Below are positions 34,487-35,960 of a DNA stretch of 41,688 bases, piece by piece. The stretch lies in contig CAMQRS010000013.1 of NCBI GenBank assembly GCA_947036815.1, positions 1 through 41,688 of the forward strand, written 5' to 3'. The DNA is from an uncultured Erysipelotrichaceae bacterium. GTDB lineage: Bacteria; Bacillota_I; Bacilli_A; Erysipelotrichales; Erysipelotrichaceae. Each line of letters begins with the position of its first letter. The first letter of the stretch is position 1. The notes below the pieces were generated by a model. The model was not told the DNA's origin. It was given only the letters and a program-made list of their open reading frames with translations, and made no database searches. The position numbers and the translations under genes were made by a program.

Positions 34487-34515
34487 TTGACGATTGCATG
34501 TTTATAGTTTATTAT
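34487..34515 (+). promoter_or_regulatory. Sigma-A promoter of the MATE leader
   Basis: TTGACG (34487-34492), a 17-base spacer, and TATTAT (34510-34515): one of the best -35/-10 pairs in the window. The transcript would begin near 34522, right at a small hairpin CCGAT-GTA-ATCGG (34520-34532), about 113 bases before the MATE start. Confidence 0.75.
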
Positions 34516-34537
34516 ATATCCGATGTAATCGGAGGGT

Positions 34538-34630
34538 ATGTTATACTTAAATAACTGCTGGATAAGATGTTTTACCAATTGGTACGACATCTTATCCAGT
34601 TTTTTTATTTTAATTATAATGATAAGGTAA
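34538..34630 (+). CDS. Candidate 30-codon leader peptide (uORF) before the MATE gene
   Basis: ATG at 34538 is preceded by GGAGGG (34531-34536), though this is close to the start (one base gap). It is open for 30 codons, running MLYLNNCWIRCFTNWYDIL, a short hydrophobic tail and stop at 34628-34630. The frame passes completely through the terminator hairpin (34558-34606), and the stop is only four bases before the MATE ATG at 34635. That arrangement would let translation control both termination and coupling. It is a prediction from sequence; the peptide is not a known family, and an open frame this short can arise by chance. Confidence 0.4.
   Translation: MLYLNNCWIRCFTNWYDILSSFFILIIMIR
34558..34606 (+). 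terminator. Strong hairpin terminator or attenuator before the MATE gene
   Basis: CTGGATAAGATGT (34558-34570) pairs perfectly with ACATCTTATCCAG (34587-34599), with an inner ACCAATTGGT palindrome in the loop (34574-34583), then seven T (34600-34606). It is about 100 bases past the phosphohexomutase stop and only 28 bases before the MATE start. With a promoter at 34487-34515 it would make an RNA of about 85 nt if termination is complete. Confidence 0.9.
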
Positions 34631-34634
34631 GAAA

Positions 34635-35960
34635 ATGAATGTATTAAAGGGAAATATAGAAAAGATATACTTTAAGTATTTAGCAGCGTCTTTTGGAGGC
34701 GCAATCCTTCAATCGGTATATGGATTAGTAGATATGGCAGTTGTGGGTCAATATCATGGACCAAGTGGTTCAGCTACGATGGCTATTATTGCGTCAATCA
34801 TGAACGTGATTTATAGTTTTGGATTAATGACTGGTATTGGTGCATCCATATTGTTTAGTATAGAAAAAAGTTCAAATAGAAATAACAATAATACTGCTAA
34901 TTCTTATTTTACGGTTGGATTGATTCTAACGCTATTTATTTCATTTATACTGTGGATGTCCATCGTATTTTTTGATACAGAAATTTTACTATTATTAGGG
35001 GCAGATGAAACCATGTTGCCACTTGCTAAAGACTATTTAATACCATTTAAATTTGGTACGCCTGTATTCTTGTGTATGCAGTTCATGGCAGCATTTCTAA
35101 GAAATGACAATAATCCTACATTAACAACTAAAGCCATAGTAGTAGGAGGTGTATTTAATATTGTAGGTGATATTTTATTTGTATTCACCTTTGATATGGG
35201 TATTCTAGGAGCTGGATTAGCTACTGTATTAGGGGCATCGCTTTCATTACTTATTATGCTGACTCATTTACTAAGTACAAAGAATACATTGCGACTAGTA
35301 AGACCAATAAATATATTCAATCAAACGAAAAATATCGTGACCCTTGGTTTTTCAACTTTTTTTGTAGATCTATCAATGGGTATCTTAACGATGTTATTTA
35401 ACATTCAAATAATGAAATACTTAGGAGGTAATGCTCTTGCGGTATATGGTATTATTGTAAATATATCAACATTCGTACAATGTTGTGCATATGGAGTAGG
35501 GCAGGCATCACAGCCAATTTTATCAGTCAATTTTGGAGCCAACAAATGGCATCGAATAAAGAAACTTTTAAGATACAATATTATGACCACATCGCTAATA
35601 AGCTTAGTTTGGTTAGTTGTGACAATGCTATTTCCTAATGTGTTTGTCCATGCATTTATGACACCAAGTGCAGAGATTTTAGAAATAGCACCCGCAATTA
35701 TGAAAGTGTACTGTATTTCATTTGCATTTTTACCTTTCAATATATATTCAACTTATTATTTTCAATCTATAATGAAAGCGAGGATAGCCTTCGTTATTTC
35801 GGTTAGTAGAGGTTTAATCATTAGTGGTGTTCTAATTATGGTGTTGCCTATGTTGTTTGAACCGAGTTCTATTTGGCTTGCTATGCCAATTAGCGAAGCA
35901 ATTATCTTTACATTTGCAGCAATGGCAATGAGATTGCCGGATAAAAGAGGGAATCAATAA
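34635..35960 (+). CDS. MATE-family multidrug efflux transporter
   Basis: 441-aa membrane protein with twelve hydrophobic segments in two similar halves, of the MATE (multidrug and toxic compound extrusion) family; uses Na+ or H+ to export drugs or metabolites. Typical stretches include VYGLVDMAVVGQYHGPSGSATMAI near the N-terminus, FLRNDNNPTLTTKAIVVGGVFNIVGDI in the first half, and VYGIIVNISTFVQCCAYGVGQASQPILSVNFGA in the second. AAGG (34624-34627) precedes the ATG. Its leader suggests regulated expression. TATAAT at 34615-34620 might instead be a -10 of its own. Substrate unknown. Confidence 0.92.
   Translation: MNVLKGNIEKIYFKYLAASFGGAILQSVYGLVDMAVVGQYHGPSGSATMAIIASIMNVIYSFGLMTGIGASILFSIEKSSNRNNNNTANSYFTVGLILTLFISFILWMSIVFFDTEILLLLGADETMLPLAKDYLIPFKFGTPVFLCMQFMAAFLRNDNNPTLTTKAIVVGGVFNIVGDILFVFTFDMGILGAGLATVLGASLSLLIMLTHLLSTKNTLRLVRPINIFNQTKNIVTLGFSTFFVDLSMGILTMLFNIQIMKYLGGNALAVYGIIVNISTFVQCCAYGVGQASQPILSVNFGANKWHRIKKLLRYNIMTTSLISLVWLVVTMLFPNVFVHAFMTPSAEILEIAPAIMKVYCISFAFLPFNIYSTYYFQSIMKARIAFVISVSRGLIISGVLIMVLPMLFEPSSIWLAMPISEAIIFTFAAMAMRLPDKRGNQ

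Follow-up and report, generated by a model that had tools for sequence, protein, structure and literature searches.

A conserved RNA upstream of MATE efflux pump genes in Erysipelotrichaceae and other gut bacteria, probably acting as a transcriptional switch

What decides whether transcription enters the MATE-family efflux transporter gene of this uncultured Erysipelotrichaceae bacterium? In the window (the whole stretch of DNA analysed, 41,688 nucleotides), the gene stands behind a short leader in which a promoter, a sequence resembling a Shine–Dalgarno site, a small upstream open reading frame (uORF) and a strong intrinsic terminator lie close together. To the first-pass annotation this arrangement looked like ribosome-controlled attenuation: a ribosome moving through the uORF would unfold the terminator hairpin and allow transcription into the pump gene. 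Part of this proposal stands, as the terminator most likely does decide on transcription into the MATE gene, while the idea that a ribosome translating the uORF exerts the control does not agree with the relatives of the leader. We consider it likely that a conserved cis-regulatory RNA, acting as a transcriptional switch, has one of its copies at positions 34528–34605.

The leader and its gene

The features of the locus are collected in Table 1. The upstream neighbour of the MATE locus is a phosphohexomutase gene; downstream, a reverse-strand gene is followed by hrcA-, grpE- and dnaK-like genes (assigned by eye). The MATE protein of the window does not reach the cut-off of any listed NCBIfam MATE model.

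The elements described by the first-pass annotation were all found again. The SD-like GGAGGG occupies 34531–34536 and the 30-codon frame opens at ATG 34538 and closes at TAA 34628–34630, 4 bases upstream of the MATE ATG at 34635. The terminator hairpin (CTGGATAAGATG...CATCTTATCCAG) extends over 34558–34599 and the T tract over 34600–34606. The leader (34519–34612) folds with −36.6 kcal/mol, against −14.8 ± 3.0 kcal/mol for shuffled sequences (z −7.2, 0/200). In this A+T-rich region the promoter match taken alone is not above chance, 14 promoter-like matches being found and 17.7 expected. Its place is conserved: a sigma-70-like pair (score at least 9/12) is located 9–16 nucleotides before GGAGG in 45 of 49 related leaders, compared with 4% of shuffles. 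Transcription therefore probably starts a few bases before helix P0 (described below), in line with the start near 34522 that had been predicted. A small hairpin around this predicted start (TCCGAT-GTA-ATCGGA, 34519–34533) would compete with P0; it was not seen in relatives.

Table 1. Features of the MATE locus in the window
Feature	Position	Strand	Basis or remark
Sigma-70 promoter, TTGACG-17-TATTAT	34487..34515	+	predicted transcription start ~34522
Whole conserved RNA element	34528..34605	+	model R2 match, 50.2 bits, window left out of the model
P0, 5′ strand AUC	34528..34530	+	pairs with 34566–34568
Internal loop, 5′ half GGAG	34531..34534	+	GGAG in 50/52 leaders; Shine–Dalgarno of the first-pass annotation
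P1a, 5′ strand	34535..34538	+	pairs with 34556–34559; MFE fold of 34522–34572
30-codon uORF	34538..34630	+	frame not conserved; judged accidental
Hairpin P1, GUUAU/AUAAC, loop 34545–34550	34540..34555	+	window fold; family covariation
Intrinsic terminator: 12-bp outer stem, inner hairpin, T7 tract	34558..34606	+	
Internal loop, 3′ half GGAUAA	34560..34565	+	same bases within the terminator 5′ arm; GGAYAA in 49/52 leaders
P0, 3′ strand GAU	34566..34568	+	window MFE fold and family P0 complementarity
MATE-family efflux transporter gene (regulated gene), 441 aa	34635..35960	+	Pfam MatE 5.5e-37

A conserved RNA core

The same parts recur ahead of several MATE homologues: CGGAGGG, a hairpin that varies, GCTGGATAAG and a terminator. 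A covariance model (R2) was built from 46 leaders, from which the window was left out. Its score on the window (Table 1) corresponds to an E-value of 1.9e-10, or 7.4e-9 across the 1.68-Mb genome. Over the 46 leaders, 96.1% of the helix cells are paired, and two-sided changes are seen at 18 of the 23 pairs. None of 500 shuffles reached any of the five covariation measures and slid partners pair in 32–46% of cells; fitting the alignment to the structure works in favour of pairing, and the shuffles leave the kinship of the leaders in place. All six aligned P1 pairs undergo two-sided changes across the family, the three family P1a pairs all form in 43 of 52 leaders, and the terminator hairpin is present in every leader of alignment A5.

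Helix P0 was proposed after the folds of two divergent leaders (L006 and L043), in which the bases just 5′ of GGAG pair with those just 3′ of GAUAA. The complementarity of the two strands is leader-specific, with 49 distinct pairs (z 8.75, 0/20,000 permutations; the test permits an optional bulge, and so does its null). The types observed include UCAUC/GAUGG, UCAC(U)C/GGUGA, UUGC(U)C/GGCAA and CACC/GGUG. The helix comprises 3–7 bp in nearly all relatives and 3 bp in the window.

The two halves of the internal loop merit closer attention. Four positions of GGAUAA never change in alignment A5. Furthermore, the lower terminator stem is lopsided, with 36 departures on the 5′ arm versus 97 on the 3′ arm; in P1 (65/51) and in the upper terminator hairpin (82/76) departures are balanced between the strands. 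Base pairing alone does not account for the lopsided stem, so that the 5′ arm probably has another role. In L006 the sequence GAUAAG lies outside the terminator arm and is kept nevertheless, which fits a role in the core. On the other side of the loop, GGAGG is flanked by a conserved C (93%) and a final G (96%), neither of which fits the anti-Shine–Dalgarno sequence. These patterns favour a place for GGAGGG in a conserved RNA core, where GGAG faces GGAUAA between two helices, over the ribosome binding site of the earlier reading.

Without the terminator 3′ arm, the window (34522–34572) and three other leaders fold unaided into P0, the GGAG/GGAUAA loop and P1. The window core alone folds with −6.2 kcal/mol, no better than shuffles (z −0.45). 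In this copy GGAG, GGAUAA, P1a and P1 are intact and its own loops do not form a convincing kiss. Because its P0 has 3 bp only and its core is no more stable than shuffled sequence, the copy in the window may be weak or drifting.

Several leaders depart from the common form. The leader of the nearest protein relative of the window's MATE (L033) is also divergent. L006 and L043, both before MATE genes, carry a form of their own (CATCGGAGGA / CACCAGAGGA ... GATAAG[AG]TGTCGAGTGCGCTCGGTT) which the model misses or scores weakly. Finally, L071 and L072:1501-1555 hold a shortened element without a separate upper terminator hairpin, still before MATE.

Distribution and association with MATE genes

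With a first covariance model, 49 of the 196 genomes sampled from the order Erysipelotrichales proved to contain the element. In a sample of the phylum it was found in 16 of 392 genomes, all of them inside the same order. In the class of a Paralachnospira MAG about 9 of 291 genomes hold the element, the weakest of the listed matches being chance, and the same first model found it in Brachyspira. BLAST searches placed it on plasmids of Treponema saccharophilum and Subdoligranulum variabile, before MATE genes, which suits a self-contained sensor.

The first same-strand gene downstream encodes a MATE protein in 47 of 50 loci from Bacillota and Spirochaetota; these loci come partly from a search with the window's MATE protein and mostly from the RNA model alone. 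In two further loci (L090 and L129) the element precedes disrupted MATE frames. The sole exception (L054:877-960) has a broken P1; the gene ahead of it resembles that of ribosomal protein L17, and a MATE gene runs towards it. L054 is an unverified human faecal phage record. The MATE frame of L087 looks disrupted as well, and all three may be pseudogenes or assembly errors. The MATE proteins downstream of the element belong to several subfamilies, with identities to that of the window down to ~24%; the RNA is thus not merely inherited with one orthologue.

The core pattern (P0, both loop halves and a free gap) was also compared with 2.9 million viral contigs and gave four matches. One of them (L244) is a perfect 35-nt copy, UCAUC-GGAG-GGCAU-GACAUG-AUGCC-GGAUAA-GAUGA, in which P1 adjoins the loop, and it lies 63 nt upstream of a gene with a Pfam MatE match. 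The remaining three are near-identical to one another and come without the hairpin and without MATE. Two sister core patterns gave no matches over the viral contigs, and the other viral-contig searches returned mostly chance matches. In the window's own genome, a weak model match (L161; C12:33120-33198, minus strand, 31.7 bits) has the terminator loop TTGAAAT, is without GGAG and precedes a gene resembling that of a sugar-binding ABC protein.

Proposed mechanism

At the level of sequence, the comparison of the leaders demonstrates a conserved structure, the predicted mutual exclusion of two folds, a promoter and a link to MATE genes. As is expected of a riboswitch, the conserved structured RNA is located upstream of the gene it would control and on the same strand. 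In addition, the terminator 5′ arm supplies bases to P0, to P1a and to the internal loop, so that the two folds exclude each other.

We propose that the nascent transcript would fold the core first, with P0, the internal loop GGAG/GGAUAA and the hairpin P1a/P1. The 3′ half of the core, GCYGGAUAAGG, would double as the 5′ arm of the terminator, and the emerging 3′ arm would compete for GCYGGAUAAG; owing to this shared segment core and terminator would be mutually exclusive. Stabilised by a ligand, which is probably one of the pump's substrates, the core would keep the terminator from forming and the MATE gene would be transcribed. If the core were not stabilised, the terminator would win. By analogy, we infer the logic of a transcriptional ON riboswitch, in which a small molecule would bind the core directly and binding would turn the gene on. 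As only one gene family is linked to the element, there is little clue to the identity of this presumed ligand.

A contact between the P1 loop and the terminator loop may add to the folded state. It mostly joins UUCA with UGAA, and CGCA with UGCG in L133, with modest support (p ~0.005). A plain kissing-loop switch was considered and rejected: the support for the contact is modest, that for P0 is far stronger, and the loops of the window are not convincing.

Alternative explanations

Translation of the uORF (34538–34630) through the hairpin, by which a ribosome would prevent the terminator, appears very improbable to us. In the window the frame does begin just past GGAGGG, cross the hairpin and end shortly before MATE, and in leaders of the tet(M) type ORFs run across terminators. 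However, only 2 nt separate the ATG from GGAGG, less than normal initiation would require. The first-pass annotation had let its reading depend on the relatives, and these keep the hairpin and not the frame: a window-like start (GGAGGGTATG) occurs in 3 of 48 leaders (the window, L033 and L034), whose peptides are unrelated and stop at different places, and in 12 of 48 there is no ATG within 30 nt of GGAGG. Moreover, the P1 pairs covary and their changes remove the uORF ATG in part of the leaders. Where ATA has become ACA (Ile to Thr), the opposite arm of the terminator has changed to match, by which the helix is kept; the frequent ‘SWIR’ peptides in other leaders arise because the RNA is conserved. 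A near-cognate AUU start 6 nt past GGAGGG was also considered and rejected, as no common frame follows it (by eye). From the sequences at hand, the uORF looks accidental. A constitutive terminator is hardly credible. It would yield an 85-nt small RNA or insulate the MATE gene from the upstream gene, and MATE would use a −10 element of its own (34615–34620). The terminator is indeed very strong and TATAAT is found at 34615, but the promoter scan listed no pair using this −10, and a plain terminator needs neither an invariant internal loop nor a sequence-specific P0 nor a fixed place before MATE.

The core could also bind a protein, or the 30S subunit with GGAGG as a decoy Shine–Dalgarno sequence, and the bound factor would block or allow the terminator. 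Protein-controlled antitermination with overlapping hairpins is known, and GGAGG is close to the RNA 5′ end and an almost perfect match to the anti-Shine–Dalgarno sequence. We nevertheless believe this to be unlikely. The conserved C and G around GGAGG do not fit such pairing, and binding of the 30S subunit leaves the second invariant half, GGAUAA, unexplained. As for a protein, no partner gene was seen adjoining the Treponema plasmid copy, and the element recurs across phyla.

Comparison with known RNAs

With Rfam 15, no family was found above the gathering cut-off in the window or its relatives, except one tRNA elsewhere in L043; matches under the cut-off were at chance level. Among the papers on new structured RNAs that were searched for MATE, none describes this motif; it may have been listed earlier under another name. 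The uORF attenuators of ABC-F, erm and tet(M) genes resemble the element in having a promoter, a leader and an attenuating hairpin before a resistance-type gene; they differ in that the element has no conserved uORF and has a conserved RNA core. ANTAR-target RNAs have a pair of hairpins whose hexaloops carry A1 and G4. This candidate was rejected, as the upper loop of the element is mostly UGARAU and its P1 loop is variable in length and without the A1/G4 pattern.

Guanidine-I (RF00442), like other transcriptional ON riboswitches in which aptamer and terminator overlap, has an aptamer whose 3′ part doubles as the 5′ arm of the terminator. This general ON logic is alike; in sequence guanidine-I has no match to the element. 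Rfam 15 detected guanidine-I before sugE genes, and 12 of the Clostridia sugE loci hold it. On a plasmid of Paraclostridium bifermentans (L100:1330-1460), sugE is preceded by a guanidine-I-like riboswitch (by eye).

Nearest in behaviour and gene class are guanidine-IV and its variant Gd4v, whose conserved bases and gene range appear to differ from those of the element (PMC7736828, PMC9788692, PMC11611296). Guanidine-IV (the GGAM-1 or mepA motif) is a short leader with an intrinsic terminator, often found before MATE genes, and functions as an ON switch by antitermination; the loops of its two hairpins can kiss (PMC7736828, PMC11611296). Gd4v, which has an orphan ligand and likewise acts on MATE genes by way of a terminator hairpin, is described as extremely similar in sequence to guanidine-IV, with the differences D1–D4, and mostly precedes transaminase genes. 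Guanidine-IV was a first guess. The gene class and the terminator control are the same, and there are likewise two hairpins whose loops may kiss; still, we regard membership in either class as quite improbable, as judged from their descriptions.

The features checked speak against guanidine-IV, in a comparison that was made with descriptions and is partly textual. GGAG and GGAUAA are nearly invariant here, whereas guanidine-IV is described with few highly conserved G's (PMC7736828), so that the conserved bases appear to be other ones. The second loop gives a mixed picture. In guanidine-IV its bases G66, U67 and G72 (L. lactis numbering) are 97% conserved. In alignment A5, the position ahead of the conserved U is mostly U or C and the sixth position past it mostly U, where G's would be expected for guanidine-IV. 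The second loop of L050, GUGAAAG, fits the guanidine-IV G/U pattern. A less strict text search, for G-U-N4-G anywhere in the hairpin, matches 15 leaders, and these matches are not confined to the loop. Furthermore, the core described here uses the terminator 5′ arm directly (P0 with GGAG/GGAUAA) and would exclude the terminator by ordinary pairing.

The commonest guanidine-IV gene, sugE, was not found downstream of the element in the 50 loci, and model R2 gave no significant match on seven sugE loci. The leaders of three sugE genes (L149, L150 and L099) share a hairpin loop GCCGG and a terminator hairpin AGGCC-N3-G and are possibly guanidine-IV; Rfam gave no match on L149 and L150. These three leaders are not matched by the model of the element, and CCGG, their loop sequence, occurs in 0 of ~50 P1 segments.

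Implications

Overall, we lean towards a new riboswitch class with a core of ~35–55 nt, which would sense a compound that MATE pumps export from gut bacteria and would turn the pump on by antitermination; we hold this with less assurance than the presence of a conserved switch as such. For most MATE pumps, to our knowledge, no natural substrate is known. The putative sensor RNA accompanies several distant MATE subfamilies across two phyla. If the proposal is right, whatever shifts termination would be a candidate MATE substrate, which would give a direct handle on what these pumps export. The orphan riboswitches would also gain a class whose core is very small, and the element would suggest how pumps of the multidrug type are induced in gut bacteria without a nearby regulator protein.
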